Shown: positions 13,133-18,615 of the stretch, piece by piece
Layout: each line of letters starts with the position of its first letter
Numbering within the stretch: position 1 is the first letter of the stretch
DNA from: Pseudovibrio sp. Alg231-02
GTDB lineage: Bacteria; Pseudomonadota; Alphaproteobacteria; Rhizobiales; Stappiaceae
Assembly: GCF_900143565.1 (NCBI RefSeq)
Contig: NZ_FREX01000001.1
Coordinates: 759,068-823,067, forward strand
Reading direction: 5' to 3'
DNA: 64,000 bases
Notes under the pieces: model-generated
The model's database searches: none
What the model was told of the DNA's origin: nothing
What the model saw: the letters and a program-made list of their open reading frames with translations, nothing else
Made by a program: the position numbers and the translations under genes

Positions 13133-13819
13133 TCAGTCCTTCTTTTTCGGCTGCCTGTATTTGAGGAATTTGCCGACGATGATGGCGGTGAGCACCACCA
13201 TGTAGAACTGGCCAGCCAGCCCAACAATGATTGCGGCCTTTCGGGCGATGGGTGTCAGTGGAACGATGTCGCCGTAGCCGATTGTCATCAGCGTGATGAA
13301 GGCGGCGTACATGAGGGCTTCTTCCTGTGAGTGGGTCTCTACATTTTCTATGGGCAGGCCTTTGAAGGAGCCCGGGTGCACGTGCTCTATAAGTATAAAG
13401 AGAAAGAACGAGACCATGCCGATTGAAATGTAGCCGCTGAGCACGCCCAGCACCACGCGGTAGTTTTCTTCAAACGTCCTGAGCATCTCATCAATCAGCA
13501 CGACGGCCACCACAGCATGGAAGGCAAAGAAGATCACAATTTGCGGGACCAGCGGGTCAATTGTCGGAAAGATTGGCGTGTCAAGAAACGACAGGATCAG
13601 CGAGCAGGCAAGCAACACGGCGACCAACCTGAAAAACTGCCTCCTTTTTAACGTGATGAGCATGCCGGTTGCGATGTTGAAGCTATAAAACGCGTTGAAA
13701 ACAGGCGTGTCCAGTGTCTGGCCCGGCAAGATCAAAGCGCCGAACATGAGCATCATCTGACTGAAGAGAAACACCTCAATCCGATAATCAAACAGACTCT
13801 TTAGAGATTGCGACCGCAC
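13133..13819 (-). CDS. Potassium channel-like protein (Ion_trans_2)
   Basis: A 228-residue membrane protein with a K+ selectivity filter, TIGYGD, near residue 178 between the last two helices (pore loop MYAAFITLMTIGYGDIVPL, then helix AAIIVGLAGQFYMVVLTAI). The N-terminal 130 residues contain four further hydrophobic segments, so the topology resembles a six-helix voltage-gated-type subunit, but I see no arginine-rich S4 helix. No cytoplasmic RCK/TrkA domain follows; the chain ends KFLKYRQPKKKD. The start is GTG with a GGGG box about 7 bp upstream. It probably tetramerises as a K+-permeable channel. Confidence 0.85.
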   Translation of the reverse strand: MRSQSLKSLFDYRIEVFLFSQMMLMFGALILPGQTLDTPVFNAFYSFNIATGMLITLKRRQFFRLVAVLLACSLILSFLDTPIFPTIDPLVPQIVIFFAFHAVVAVVLIDEMLRTFEENYRVVLGVLSGYISIGMVSFFLFILIEHVHPGSFKGLPIENVETHSQEEALMYAAFITLMTIGYGDIVPLTPIARKAAIIVGLAGQFYMVVLTAIIVGKFLKYRQPKKKD

Positions 13820-14247
13820 CGGGGACCCCAGTTTTCTTTGTTATTTTGCGCTAATTTTCGCAAAAGAAGGCTAAAGAATGGGAAATCTGGCGAGTGGGTT
13901 TGCCCATGAAATTTGGGAGCGTGTCAGTGCGTAGCAATCTTGCCTCATGCCTTTCTGTCTCACTCCCCGCATGCGACGTTGAGCCGAGTTATGTGTTTGG
14001 AAAAACACACGTTATGCATGTCTACATTTAAGAGTCTCAAGTTCACTTATGTATTATTGACTCAGATCAACAATAAATTACTAGAAACACACCTTATTTT
14101 CGACAAGCCTGAAGCAAGTTTGACTATAATATTCTCAAAAAAGACACATACTAAACTACATTGCGTCACTTTTTCCTACAACAACTTACCATATCGATAA
14201 TATGCAGGACAAATTTAAAAGTTTAACTTACTCATGTTTTCGGGCAG
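13820..14247. other. AT-rich intergenic leader region
   Basis: About 430 bp of markedly AT-rich sequence, unlike its surroundings, between the K+ channel (minus) and the repeat-protein gene (plus). A 95-codon frame at 13913-14200 lacks a ribosome binding site and looks accidental. The composition suggests a long regulatory leader or transferred DNA. Confidence 0.5.
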
Positions 14248-14269
14248 TGCGAAATTACTAAATTTCGCA
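14248..14269 (+). promoter_or_regulatory. Perfect 9-bp hairpin in the leader of the repeat protein
   Basis: TGCGAAATT and AATTTCGCA form a perfect 9-bp stem around an ACTA loop. It ends 29 bp before the start codon at 14299 and 15-18 bp before the AAAGGAA Shine-Dalgarno (about 14284-14290). It could be a terminator of an upstream transcript, an mRNA 5' stabiliser or an operator. Confidence 0.7.
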
Positions 14270-14298
14270 TTTCTAATAAAGTAAAAGGAAAATTTTAT

Positions 14299-14766
14299 AT
14301 GCGGTACAACTTCAATCCTGATTACTTCAATTTCGGCGGTGCTCCTAATCCTGGCACCAACAGCATTTCATCTGGCAACAACTCGGTTGCACCAGGGAAC
14401 ACAGTCAACACCACTGGAAACACGATCACGACGCCGAGTGGAACCATCACAGATGGCCCTGCTCCAATTTCCTATGACAATCCATATGATGATTTTGACT
14501 TCGGCAACCTTGGCGGCAACAGCATCAACACCGGCGGCAATGTTGTAACCGGATCCGGCAACTCCGTCACAACCGGTGGCCACCATGTCACTGGTTCCGG
14601 TGTTAATCTTGATACTGGAGGTCACACGGTCGTTGGCTCTGGCATTACTTTAGATACCGGTGGCCATAGCGTTGGCAATCCAATGGATTACGATGGCGCT
14701 GATTATGGCGGCTATGACGCGGCCTCAGATTACAGCAGCTTTGATTACGGCGACTTCTTCCTCTAA
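14299..14766 (+). CDS. Small Gly/Asn/Thr-rich protein with 7/14-residue repeats, possible beta-solenoid
   Basis: I do not recognise the family. The 155-residue protein has an aromatic/acidic head (1-18), a first repeat block (21-52), an acidic Tyr/Phe linker (57-71) and a second, very regular block (74-127). In the second block hydrophobic residues fall at 76, 83, 90, 97, 104, 111, 118 and 125, exactly every seven. GG pairs at 79, 93, 107 and 121 alternate with GSG at 85, 99 and 113, giving a 14-residue period. This is what a two-sided beta-solenoid or beta-roll would show. The tail (129-155) is Asp/Tyr-rich and ends DFFL. There is no signal peptide and no cysteine. The final acidic-plus-three-hydrophobic residues resemble type I secretion signals, but no secretion genes are nearby. 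A strong AAAGGAA box precedes ATG. Confidence 0.75.
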   Translation: MRYNFNPDYFNFGGAPNPGTNSISSGNNSVAPGNTVNTTGNTITTPSGTITDGPAPISYDNPYDDFDFGNLGGNSINTGGNVVTGSGNSVTTGGHHVTGSGVNLDTGGHTVVGSGITLDTGGHSVGNPMDYDGADYGGYDAASDYSSFDYGDFFL

Positions 14767-14940
14767 GCAGCCCCCACGCTCCAGTCTGAGCCCCTTTTCT
14801 AACTGGAGCGTACCCACTTTTGTTGCAGCTGATTAGCTGTGCCTCCGGTGCCTATTTCGAGGCTGCGATCAAGAGTTGCAAACACTCAGGAGATGACGGC
14901 ACAGGTTTAAGCGCCACCACCTCACCTCTTCGCCACCTCA

Positions 14941-15420
14941 CCTCCCCACCGACGTCATCCCGGCCCCCGAGCCGGGACCTAGGGCCGCATGCGCTGAGGC
15001 TGGTTTGGAGACTACACAAAGTCGCTTCCAATCTGATGCGTCATTACAAGGCGAAGATACCGAGAGGCTTGACCTCGCCGCTCTAGGTCCCGCATCGCGC
15101 TGCGCTTGTGCGGGATGACGGCATGAGGGGATCTGCCATCGCCCCATCATCTCACCTCCCCACCGACGTCTTCCCGGCCCCCGAGCCGGGACCTAGGGCG
15201 GCATGTGCTGAGGCTGGTTTGGAAACAACACAAAGCCGCTTTCAATCTGATGCGTCATTTCAAGGCGAAGATACCGAGAGGCTCTACCTCACCCCTCTGG
15301 GTCCCGCATCGCGCTGCGCTTGTGCGGGATGACGGCATGAGGGAGCTGCCATCACTCCATCACCTCGCCTCCCCACCGACGTCTTCCCGGCCCCCGAGCC
15401 GGGATCTGATCTCGAAATTG
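14941..15420. repeat. Tandem 214-bp repeats, two full copies and a partial third
   Basis: The unit begins CCTCCCCACCGACGTC at 14941, 15155 and 15368 (periods 214 and 213 bp); the third copy stops after the CCCGGCCCCCGAGCCGGG palindrome. Each full unit also carries a second palindromic piece, CCCGCA...TGCGGG (near 15088-15115 and 15302-15330). The pieces are the GTCATCCCG-type repeat found between genes of many alphaproteobacteria. Open frames crossing the array are artefacts of its high GC. No transposase is present. Confidence 0.85.
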
Positions 15421-15485
15421 CGACTTACACAGTGCGCAACTTATGCTATTAACTTCACAATTATTAACTAGTCACAGAACTCATC

Positions 15486-16409
15486 ATGACAATACCAATT
15501 GTAAGAAAACGTCGATGGTTAGTAGCATTTCTACTGCAATTCTTCGGCGCATCAGGCTACTTGTATGTTGGGCGACCAAAGCGCTTTTTCTTTTTTATTG
15601 TTTTGCTCTGGCTTGCTCTAATATTCATGCTGGTTCCAATGCCGAACTTCATAGATAGCAGAGTCTATTTGGGCATTTTCTTTCTTGTTTGGCTGGCCCT
15701 GTATCTGACTACATACATTGACTTATTTATGCTGTCGCGGAGCCAGAAAGAATATACTCTTAAGCGCTATAATCGGTGGTGGGTTTACTTAGTCGTCTGG
15801 CTTTTGTTCCCGTTTCCACTCCAAATCGTAAATGCCGTACTTCTCCCACAGCGGCAAATTCGGACATTCTTTGTAGCATCTGGCAGTGACCAGCCAAACC
15901 TACTCAGAGGCGAATACATCGTTACGGATGCAGGAGGCTTTAGTGGCTTTGCTCCGAAACGTGGCGATATTGTTGTCTTTAAACTACCTAGTGATGGTCA
16001 AAGCGATTACATAAAACGTGTAATTGGTTTGCCGGGAGACACCGTGCGCTTGGATGATGGCAAAGTCATCTTGAATGGAAAAGCACTTGAACTAACCCCC
16101 TTGCCTGTATTTGAAACAACAGATGTGTACGGTGAAACCGTGCAAATCCCGCAAATGCTCGAACATTTACCAAATGGGAAAAGCTATCCAATTCTGAATC
16201 TCGTTCCAAACAGCTTCTTTGATAATACACCTGAGTATATTGTACCTAAAGGACATTACTTCATGCTAGGTGACCATCGGGATAATTCGCAAGACAGCCG
16301 TGTTCTTGCGGAGGTCGGATATGTTCCAGCGGAAAACATTTTTGGAAGAGCCGCGTTTATCTACTGGTCGGATGATCTGAGCAGGGTCGGAACGCTGATT
16401 AATCCATAG
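15486..16409 (+). CDS. lepB: Signal peptidase I with polytopic N-terminal domain
   Basis: A 307-residue membrane protease of the S26 family that cleaves signal peptides at the outer face of the inner membrane. The first 120 residues hold three or four hydrophobic segments, more than the two usual anchors. The catalytic region follows: Ser134 in SGSDQPNLLRGEY, Lys177 in YIKRVIGLPGD, and the conserved box GDHRDNSQDSR at 262-272. The segment after the nucleophile is S-D-Q-P-N-L where canonical enzymes have S-M-x-P-T-L, so the substrate-facing Met is replaced by Asp. It is probably an accessory signal peptidase. The gene is bracketed by copies of an intergenic repeat in opposite orientations, and its leader is AT-rich. 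Confidence 0.88.
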   Translation: MTIPIVRKRRWLVAFLLQFFGASGYLYVGRPKRFFFFIVLLWLALIFMLVPMPNFIDSRVYLGIFFLVWLALYLTTYIDLFMLSRSQKEYTLKRYNRWWVYLVVWLLFPFPLQIVNAVLLPQRQIRTFFVASGSDQPNLLRGEYIVTDAGGFSGFAPKRGDIVVFKLPSDGQSDYIKRVIGLPGDTVRLDDGKVILNGKALELTPLPVFETTDVYGETVQIPQMLEHLPNGKSYPILNLVPNSFFDNTPEYIVPKGHYFMLGDHRDNSQDSRVLAEVGYVPAENIFGRAAFIYWSDDLSRVGTLINP

Positions 16410-16424
16410 GTCGTTGTGGGTATA

Positions 16425-16595
16425 GATCCCAGCTCGGGGGCCGGGAAGACACCGGTGGGGGGGAGGCTTGTGCTAGTGCCTCTCTTCGCCGTCATGCCGG
16501 ACGGAGCGGAGTGGAGATCCGGTATCCAGTACTGAGATGGTGAGTTGTGGTGGGGTGGCTCTGGGTCCCGCATCGAGTGCGGGATGACGGATGGT
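16425..16595. repeat. Inverted copy of the intergenic repeat downstream of lepB
   Basis: GATCCCAGCTCGGGGGCCGG followed by GAAGACACCGGTGGGGGGG (16427-16464) is the reverse complement of the repeat unit seen at 15368-15410. A further piece CCCGCATCGAGTGCGGGATG lies at 16567-16586. Together with the array at 14941-15420 these flank the signal peptidase gene. Confidence 0.75.
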
Positions 16596-16740
16596 GGGGG
16601 TCGATATCTGATGACAGATAGCAATCTGTCTCCCCAATCTCCGGTTGAAATACTTCCTCCATTTCCACCAATCCACACCCCTTGCCTAAATTACCAATTT
16701 GACAAGGGCGGTGTTTCATTCCACATTCATGTGTGAGGCT

Positions 16741-16908
16741 TCACAACCTCAATACAAGCGGCTACCGCTCCCGTAACTGGCGGATTTTTTGTGCCTTTTT
16801 TTTGAAGGGTGCAAACCCTTTGCTATGAGCGGGAGGACGGTGAATACAACACTTCCTTCGGGAAGGAATAAACCTGCCTGCCTTGTATCAGGTTGTGAAC
16901 CTCCCGCT
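16741..16908 (+). ncRNA. Structured non-coding segment with alternative pairings, possible cis-acting RNA
   Basis: Several helices can form. AGCGGGAGG (16828-16836) pairs with CCTCCCGCT (16900-16908); inside it TACAA (16845-16849) can pair with TTGTA (16883-16887) and CTTCC-TTCG-GGAAG (16852-16865) forms a UUCG tetraloop hairpin. Alternatively TCACAACCTCAATACAAG (16741-16758) pairs almost fully with CTTGTATCAGGTTGTGA (16882-16898), which excludes the inner pairings. A CCGC...GCGG stem followed by six T residues (about 16765-16790) resembles an attenuator. It lies 68 bp before the orphan gene at 16977. I recognise no known riboswitch; a small mobile or repeat element is the alternative. Confidence 0.45.
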
Positions 16909-16976
16909 CGCCAGTGGGTCATCACAAACTTGACTGCCGCGCGGTCCTTCAACTGCCAAATACAAGGGGCATTGAA

Positions 16977-17315
16977 ATGACCAGTTCCGCATGTGCCTGT
17001 GGCACCACAAATACTTTCCAAAATGAAATAGACGAAGTGCTCGTCGCTGCATCTGATTTGCAGAACCTTGCTTATATGCAGCAGCTGTTGCTGAGCGAGA
17101 GGATGCAGGACAGCAGTGAGCGGGATGCTTTGTTCACTTTGCATTATGCCTTTCGCGACCGCTTGGAAGCTCTTCAAAAAAGCTGCGGACAGATTATTGA
17201 CGCGTATTCCTCTCCCATGCCCAAAAGCAGGTTTCGGGAATACGGCCTGGAGCAGGTCGACCAGCCGCAGCCCATAACCAAAACAGTGCTGTTTCCAGAC
17301 AAAGCCGGTTCCTGA
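16977..17315 (+). CDS. Small hypothetical protein
   Basis: A 112-residue soluble, mostly helical protein that I do not recognise. It starts with a short Cys-containing stretch (CACGTT) and has a helical middle, QNEIDEVLVAASDLQNLAYM then SERDALFTLHYAFRDRLEAL, and ends in a polar tail. The frame extends upstream to 16914, but ATG 16977 has AGGGGC at a suitable distance, and the upstream part overlaps the structured leader. Evidence that it is real: a ribosome binding site, an upstream structured leader and a terminator overlapping its stop codon. No functional partner is evident. Confidence 0.6.
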   Translation: MTSSACACGTTNTFQNEIDEVLVAASDLQNLAYMQQLLLSERMQDSSERDALFTLHYAFRDRLEALQKSCGQIIDAYSSPMPKSRFREYGLEQVDQPQPITKTVLFPDKAGS

Positions 17316-17339
17316 TCATCTCAGGCAATCGGCTTTTTT
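17301..17339 (+). terminator. Rho-independent terminator of the small orphan gene
   Basis: AAAGCCG (17301-17307) pairs with CGGCTTT, with an inner CCTGA/TCAGG stem, and is followed by a T-run. The stop codon TGA lies inside the structure. Confidence 0.75.
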
Positions 17340-17724
17340 GATGGCCGCATGGGTGCCCTTGGCAGGTGTTTTGCCACGATGTGCCTGTGCAGACCGACTG
17401 TGCTTGAGCGTTTGGCGCCGTGCGTGCCAGCCGCTGTGGTGCCGGAGGCGGAACGCGCTTACACCCCGCATTGCCGCCAAGGGTGCCCTGCTGGTCTGCG
17501 GAGCTGTCATCCCTTCGCAGGCCAGCGCCTTTTCAGGCTGTGGCATGTGGGATGCAAACATAGCAAGAATTGCAAAGAATGGCGCACGATGACCGCTTAA
17601 GCTTGGGCGGTGTTTCGTTTTAACAGAGCTGTGCCCTTGATGTTTTGCCCCTTCCCCTCCCTAAATTCCGGCTCCTCTTTTGCGCGGGATGTTGTAAGCT
17701 TCTGCCGAGTATGGGAGGCTGACG
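17340..17724. other. Intergenic region, no supported gene
   Basis: Frames of about 80 codons exist on both strands (for example 17338-17592), but their Cys/Arg-rich translations and missing ribosome binding sites argue against coding. The AraC gene promoter should lie near the right end. Confidence 0.45.
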
Positions 17725-18615
17725 ATGCGGCATGAAGCTTTGCAGAAGAACATCTATACGCAGCGGATTAACCGGGCGATGGATTATATTGAGCAGAACA
17801 TCTGCGAGGATCTCTCCCTTGCCCAGATTGCCGATGCGGCGTGTTTTTCTCCCTATCACTTTCACCGTATCTTCAAGGCCATGACCGGAGAGACGGTCAA
17901 TCAGTTCACCAGCCGGTTGCGGGTTGAAAAGGCCGCGCGGCGGCTGAAGCAGAATGCCAGCATCTCCATTACCGATGCGGCGCTGGACATGGGCTTTGCC
18001 TCGCCCTCTACCTTTGCGCGCTCGTTTCAGGCGCGGTTTGGCATGTCCGCCAGCCAGTGGCGGCGGGATGCGACTGCGTCCGTTGAGGCGTTTGCTGGTG
18101 AGACCATGGTGCTGGAACGGCCTGCGAGCGGGCTGGTGGCGGACAAGGTGGAGGTGTGCAAACTGGAGCCGCGCACGGTGGCTTATGTGCGCCGGACGGG
18201 CAACTTTCAGGAACGGCCCGAGATTTTTGGCGAGGCGTTTGGCACGCTGATGGCATGGGCCGGACCGCGCGGGCTTATGCATAGAGCGGAGATGATGTGC
18301 CTGTTTCACGACGATCCGCAGGTGACCGATGTGGAGCAGATGCGTTTCAGCTCCTGCCTGACGCTGCGCGGGCCAGCGGATGTTGAGGGCGAAGTGGGCA
18401 AGATGGTGGTTGGCGGCGGGCGCTATGCCTGCGGGTACTTTGTGATCACCCATGATCAGTCACAGGCGGCATGGGAATATATGTATGGCACGTGGTTGCC
18501 TTTGAGCGGGTACGAGCCGGAGAACATCCCCTGCTTCCAGCTGTATCCTTCCATGACCGGTGAGACGGGGCCACAGCCCGCGGTGATCTGCATTCCGGTG
18601 CGGCCTCTTTCTTAA
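17725..18615 (+). CDS. AraC-family regulator with GyrI-like effector-binding domain
   Basis: A 296-residue transcription factor. An N-terminal AraC-type double helix-turn-helix (about residues 10-112) contains DLSLAQIADAACFSPYHFHR and ITDAALDMGFASPSTFARSF. The C-terminal half (about 135-295) is a GyrI-like small-molecule-binding domain (VCKLEPRTVAYVRRTGNF ... GGGRYACGYFVITHDQ ... ENIPCFQLYPS). The order matches the Rob/SoxS-like multidrug regulators of the Rob type, where the C-terminal domain senses ligands. No target gene is next to it in an obvious way; the downstream small membrane protein gene is 109 bp away. Confidence 0.9.
   Translation: MRHEALQKNIYTQRINRAMDYIEQNICEDLSLAQIADAACFSPYHFHRIFKAMTGETVNQFTSRLRVEKAARRLKQNASISITDAALDMGFASPSTFARSFQARFGMSASQWRRDATASVEAFAGETMVLERPASGLVADKVEVCKLEPRTVAYVRRTGNFQERPEIFGEAFGTLMAWAGPRGLMHRAEMMCLFHDDPQVTDVEQMRFSSCLTLRGPADVEGEVGKMVVGGGRYACGYFVITHDQSQAAWEYMYGTWLPLSGYEPENIPCFQLYPSMTGETGPQPAVICIPVRPLS

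Follow-up and report, generated by a model that had tools for sequence, protein, structure and literature searches.

The window, that is, the whole stretch of 64,000 nucleotides of a marine Pseudovibrio that was analyzed, contains on its forward strand an open reading frame for a protein of 155 residues, P0001, the position of which is as given in the initial annotation (14299-14766). The features of the locus are listed below.

13920..16661, no strand: species-specific accessory insert of ~2.7 kb, with an approximate right edge, delimited by blastn against L032, L033, and L034
14246..14271, forward strand: hairpin of 11 bp within the 5' leader, shortly ahead of the ribosome-binding site of P0001, from RNA folding
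14284..14289, forward strand: ribosome-binding site AAAGGA, 9 nt 5' of the ATG of P0001, read directly from the sequence
14299..14766, forward strand: open reading frame of P0001, 155 aa, with ATG at 14299 and stop codon at 14764-14766
14299..14352, forward strand: N-terminal aromatic segment of P0001, residues 1-18, read from the sequence
14353..14466, forward strand: first heptad block of P0001, residues 19-56, defined by hydrophobic spacing
14467..14514, forward strand: linker of P0001 rich in Tyr, Asp, and Phe, residues 57-72, defined by composition
14515..14682, forward strand: second heptad block of P0001, residues 73-128, eight heptads equal to four 14-residue coils, defined by repeat counts
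14683..14763, forward strand: Tyr/Asp-rich tail of P0001, residues 129-155, with the end D-F-F-L, a putative signal for type I export at the C terminus
15486-16409: lepB2, a second signal peptidase I (TIGR02227) that carries additional hydrophobic sequence in its N-terminal part

P0001 is strongly acidic (pI ~4.05, net charge ~-14), contains no Cys, Glu, Lys, Gln, or Trp, and exhibits, by eye, no obvious export signal peptide in its residues 1-18. The AT-rich setting ascribed to the gene is found in the 449 bases upstream of the frame, with 36.7% G+C, but neither in the frame itself (51%) nor in the stretch downstream of it (59%). The G+C content of codon positions 1-3 (0.50, 0.51, and 0.53) is flat compared to that of the neighboring genes, which we attribute to the abundance of Gly, Asn, and Thr in the protein. 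The leader hairpin, found upon folding of the region 14220-14330, has a z value of -2.2, with 4 of 200 shuffled sequences folding equally well; candidate roles for it are those of an operator, an mRNA stabilizer, or a terminator. Within 13800-17800 no RNA was found by Rfam at gathering scores, and a scan for promoters and terminators gave results no better than those for shuffled sequence.

The second block of P0001 consists of eight consecutive heptads (GNSINTG, GNVVTGS, GNSVTTG, GHHVTGS, GVNLDTG, GHTVVGS, GITLDTG, and GHSVGNP, residues 73-128), each of which starts with Gly and carries Val, Ile, or Leu in position 4 (8/8), with Asn or His in position 2 of six of the eight and Val or Ile in the other two. 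A run of eight heptads with Gly in position 1 and Val, Ile, or Leu in position 4 was not encountered in any of 100,000 shuffles of the protein, the best of which contained four, and the strict 7/14-residue periodicity reported initially is thus borne out. The same is true of the alternation of GG and GSG turns, since TG terminates each of the four odd heptads and GS all but one of the four even heptads, and the true unit of the repeat therefore comprises 14 residues. Identity within this block is 26/42 at a lag of 14 and 14/49 at a lag of 7. The other block, previously described as looser, is indeed present, but it is nearly as regular as the main one, with hydrophobic residues at 23, 30, 36, 43, 50, and 57, that is, with the same heptad minus one residue. 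In the whole of P0001, there are 11 pairs of Val, Ile, Leu, or Met at a lag of 7, a number matched by none of 5,000 shuffles, and the PSSM score of the protein, which mostly re-measures this periodicity, was also reached by none of 5,000. Of the 3,344 distinct stop-to-stop frames of the loci sampled up to that point and of the window, P0001 has a chain of four strict G[NH]x[VIL] heptads, one RTX frame has a chain of two, and no other frame has even two.

The repeat is maintained at the level of the protein. Comparison of the 14-residue units reveals 44 position pairs with identical residues, 15 of which use the same codon and 29 different ones, and this extent of codon sharing (34%) is close to the 36% expected for independent draws from the P0001 gene. 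As Tandem Repeats Finder also detected no DNA tandem array inside the frame, the repeat is not the product of a recent DNA expansion; either the residues persisted through codon drift, or the units converged. This conservation of residues despite the divergence of codons is the main evidence that the orphan frame encodes a real protein under selection.

No relative of P0001 was found. Searches of Pfam and NCBIfam yielded only chance scores to aminopeptidases (E 0.25-1.6), with an aminopeptidase at E 1.6 as the sole match in Pfam at a threshold of E 10, and neither PHROGs nor PADLOC-DB gave a match at the same threshold. The matches to solved structures were also at chance level, the best of them (E 0.15) being to an aminopeptidase and to galactoside acetyltransferase, which we take to be a left-handed β-helix. 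Protein searches were negative in 60 other relatives, 15 of them from the same genus, as well as in 384 other members of the class, and a profile of the coil, A1, gave no match at E 0.001 in 396 other members of the order or 397 other members of the phylum; these memberships overlap, and their totals are not numbers of distinct genomes. One genome per species was used, so this species is represented by a single strain. Within the genus, A1 did match in 5 of the 15 other genomes, weakly (E 0.009-0.77) and never in a comparable protein. The matches were considered as homologues and rejected, as they are short, fall in unrelated frames, and look like the products of chance; the best of them runs antisense to a gene that we read as phage-capsid-like. 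Plasmids, phages, viral contigs, and contigs of one genome per species contained no homologue either, although the plasmid and phage searches, which were filtered for low complexity, constitute a weak negative, and the contig scans were based on a few short peptide patterns. In particular, no homologue with a different number of repeats was present in the genomes and contigs searched. The initial remark that the layout of P0001 is that of no familiar family thus stands for the collections and genomes searched, and our verdict is that it is a real, if strange, orphan.

The surroundings of the gene had been described as a repeat-rich stretch between housekeeping genes. A REP-like tandem repeat of 214 bp (2.2 copies with 92% matches) is indeed present at 14934-15404, outside the frame, but the region from ~13920 to 16661 is an accessory insert rather than an ordinary intergenic one. 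DNA identity of 83-94% to the three closest relatives, L032, L033, and L034, breaks off in blastn at 13919-13923 and is restored from 16662-16663 onward. A second match to L034 begins already at 16482, and pieces of the repeat also match inside the insert. Of the leader (13850-14298), only the first ~70 bases are found in 4 of the 15 other members of the genus, and a fifth has a match of 29 bases. The gene order opp - ABC-F - channel - AraC - rsuA is kept in eight relatives, with rsuA of one of them (G006) lying outside the stretch examined. The region 13920-16661 is a variable cargo spot between the channel gene and the AraC/GyrI-like regulator. In the window it contains the gene of P0001, the 214-bp repeat, and lepB2, while the same gap is occupied by an AHJR-type nuclease and RusA in L033 and by a Schlafen/AlbA_2 protein in L037; of the gap proteins of L032 and L034, the one tested in each case finds no match in Pfam. 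An inverted partial copy of the repeat is located beyond the signal peptidase gene (16423-16463), and pieces related to it are present in L034, L037, and L038. Full-length relatives of lepB2 (48-50% identity) occur in 2 of the 15 other members of the genus, and an N-terminal fragment in a third. The signal peptidase was considered as a functional partner of P0001, but linkage between the two is not supported, since within the stretches examined neither inspection by eye nor a heptad scan revealed such a frame beside its relatives in two members of the genus. In one relative (L009 and L038, G005:C4:276690-277369), the match to the channel gene is split in two, the first piece contains stops, and the gene looks broken there.

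The C-terminal tail is rich in Tyr and Asp and ends with an acidic residue followed by three hydrophobic ones (DFFL), as was originally noted. P0001 is the only one of the 59 non-overlapping frames of at least 100 residues in the window to end in this manner. In a mechanically compiled set of 231 frames, drawn from 28 loci of the same genome and from the window and including some spurious open frames, such an end is found in 3 of 208 non-RTX frames and in 2 of 23 RTX ones, proportions that do not represent a fair genome-wide rate, as the loci had been selected by the presence of HlyD or RTX and the neighbors of type I secretion systems are over-represented. The set omits the RTX place C15:169043, located at a contig end, and covers in part the surroundings of the HlyD gene of C18. 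A wider pattern, with an acidic residue followed by 3-5 hydrophobic ones or Ala, is present in 16/23 RTX and 4/208 other frames, and a D-F-type pattern in 18/23 and 4/208, respectively.

In addition to P0001, the three non-RTX frames include a 124-aa protein of contig C7 (DDMLM) and a 654-aa protein of contig C14 (SDILV), which end 25 and 28 bases, respectively, ahead of PrtD-class ABC frames (TIGR01842, 690 and 699 bits) that are followed by HlyD genes. The former (end DYGSDDMLM; L125:9341-11519 and the HlyD gene that follows, C7:85031-88518) is an orphan without a match in NCBIfam or Pfam and is a probable small non-RTX type I substrate. The latter (end SDMVSDILV; L123:3581-8844, C14:82580-87843) also has no match in either collection and, by eye, includes internal repeats of the form G.YY..N.I.Q.N.L. 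The type I secretion genes that the initial annotation proposed to look for elsewhere in the genome are present there, with 10 HlyD-type adaptors and 5 PrtD-type exporters above curated cut-offs, three of the 15 lying at the ends of contigs; none of the exporter genes or operons adjoins the gene of P0001.

Ghigo and Wandersman reportedly devoted a paper in 1994 to a four-residue motif. According to the available text of PMC2642768, proteases of the AprA type end with three hydrophobic residues after Asp, and in the tail of a Serratia lipase the acidic residue could be removed or moved with no detectable effect on secretion; the available part of PMC3034196 contains nothing on the rule. HasA is described in the accessible portion of PMC8277102 as having no RTX domain, and its exporter HasD as having no extra N-terminal domain. 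P0001 resembles such non-RTX substrates of PrtD/HasD-class exporters in being small and acidic, with no evident N-terminal signal, and its end of Asp and three hydrophobic residues is that of AprA and PrtG, although it has no linked exporter and no sequence relation to them was found. The resemblance to the C termini of type I secreted proteins that had been suggested is thus upheld by the fit of the tail to the AprA-type rule, which is shared with the two frames located beside PrtD-class exporters, and these features together make it reasonably probable that P0001 is exported. In the main text of two Pseudovibrio genome papers, as far as available, 'RTX' appears three times each and 'type I secretion' does not appear.

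The period and the repeat grammar of P0001 make 14-residue β-rolls the nearest solved structures, and we predict with good confidence that its repeats form a β-roll with 14-residue coils. On our best reading, it resembles the domain of grasses that inhibits ice recrystallization (IRI) and the heads of autotransporters in architecture and grammar, a likeness that implies neither membership in these families nor homology. According to the portions of PMC5744647 and PMC7383708 that were available, the coils of the grass domain comprise 14-15 residues and carry NxVxG motifs, with ladders of Asn/His inside the roll, and the former describes the helix as right-handed. In turn, the heads of the BpaC type are built of 14-residue layers of a left-handed roll with a conserved Gly and, in BpaC, Asn (PMC9543794, available in part). 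Since these two rolls are of opposite handedness, that of P0001 may be either. An invented query of the form xxNxVxG matches the grass structure 3ult (E 4e-28) and the BpaC head 7o23 (E 4e-16), and weakly the heads 3ntn (E 0.15) and 3s6l (E 6). At E 10, neither P0001 itself nor the profile A1 matches 3ult, and neither has a sequence match to 7o23 among the solved structures. Upon permutation of the heptad columns, P0001 ranks 122/720 against the grass repeat and 489/720 against BpaC, neither of which is significant, and the grass repeat ranks 30/720 against BpaC.

We tentatively favor, with somewhat less than even confidence in the complete model, P0001 being a non-RTX substrate of PrtD-class type I secretion that forms a 14-residue β-roll and binds a regular surface or polymer. 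The protein would leave the cell unfolded through one of its PrtD-class systems, with the exporter reading the uncleaved C-terminal tail (an acidic residue and FFL). Outside, the ~13 heptads of the two blocks would wind into a flat β-roll of 14 residues per coil, each coil contributing two short strands, with Val, Ile, or Leu, as well as Asn or His in position 2, directed inward and Ser, Thr, and Asp outward, and with the Tyr/Asp-rich linker and tail flanking the roll. In our reading, the outward positions are S/N, S/T, N/D, and T/D on one face and V/T, H/T, T/V, and S/G on the other. We can speculate, with still greater reserve, that P0001 binds a host or matrix glycan or self-associates in the biofilm matrix.

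The alternative of a cytosolic protein, an accessory cargo with a role in defense, against phages, or in regulation that resembles a secreted one in its tail by chance, draws on the Schlafen/AlbA_2 protein and the nuclease with RusA found in the same gap, as well as on the lack of exporter genes nearby. We regard it as rather unlikely in view of the negative PADLOC-DB and PHROGs searches, the acidic composition devoid of five amino acids, and the rarity of the tail among the 208 sampled non-RTX frames. If the model of a secreted roll is followed further, P0001 would be the founder of a new secreted class, a lineage-specific bacterial roll that originated independently of the grass IRI domains and the heads of autotransporters and is exported by PrtD-class systems in the absence of RTX, with its flat face of Ser, Thr, and Asp binding an ordered surface, for instance ice, mineral, or host polysaccharide; we consider this extended form improbable.

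By analogy with the grass protein LpAFP of Lolium perenne (3ULT), P0001 might be an ice-binding roll that inhibits recrystallization with a Ser/Thr-rich face lying on ice. Both have the grammar x-[NH]-x-V-x-G-S, with seven-residue half-coils similar to xxNxVxG, which in P0001 would likewise add up to coils of 14-15 residues, Asn or His in position 2, Val in position 4, and turns of Gly, Ser, or Thr, and P0001 is similar in size to the 118-aa grass domain, the ice-binding site of which is the Ser/Thr-rich flat side of the coils (available text of PMC5744647 and PMC7383708). However, P0001 is bacterial, consists of two blocks with a Tyr/Asp linker and an acidic-hydrophobic tail, and has no counterpart of the LRR portion that the grass proteins contain. 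Moreover, its outward positions are mixed rather than arranged in two regular rows of Thr, its match to the column order of the grass repeat is the nonsignificant one given above, and Pseudovibrio, in the sources available in part, was described from marine invertebrates, and nothing here points to freezing habitats, which renders binding to ice quite improbable.

That the frame is no gene but a low-complexity open frame would agree with its skewed composition and with the searches that returned no homologue, but it is very improbable given the ribosome-binding site and the eight exact heptads in which residues are conserved while codons diverge. Little credence can be given to P0001 being a diverged calcium-binding protein of the RTX set of this genome. 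That set is large, the 150 candidates scored out of 207 having yielded at least 125 RTX stretches, and P0001 shares with the RTX proteins, built as β-rolls of nonapeptides, its richness in Gly and Asp, its acidity, and a similar tail, but its period is 7/14 rather than 9/18, neither the GGxGxD nor the GxGxD motif is present, and HemolysinCabind of Pfam gives no match even at E 10. Least credible of all is that P0001 is the head of a trimeric autotransporter (YadA, BpaC, Hep_Hag), whether detached or relic, for although 14-residue layers, a conserved Gly, and, in the case of BpaC, an Asn are points of similarity and the invented consensus matches heads, 7o23 strongly and the two others weakly, the frame stops at residue 155 with no space for a stalk and a membrane anchor, no anchor or coiled coil is present, Pfam finds neither Hep_Hag nor YadA, and the column order is not alike (489/720).

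If the preferred model of a type I secreted roll is true, one heptad grammar would have led to a 14-residue roll in grasses, in the heads of autotransporters, and in a bacterial orphan with type-I-like secretion, and P0001 would be a clean case of the convergent or de novo origin of a repeat protein. The model would further suggest that Pseudovibrio has a group of non-RTX type I substrates, of which the proteins of C7 (124 aa) and C14 (654 aa), sharing the tail rule, may serve as direct comparators for it.
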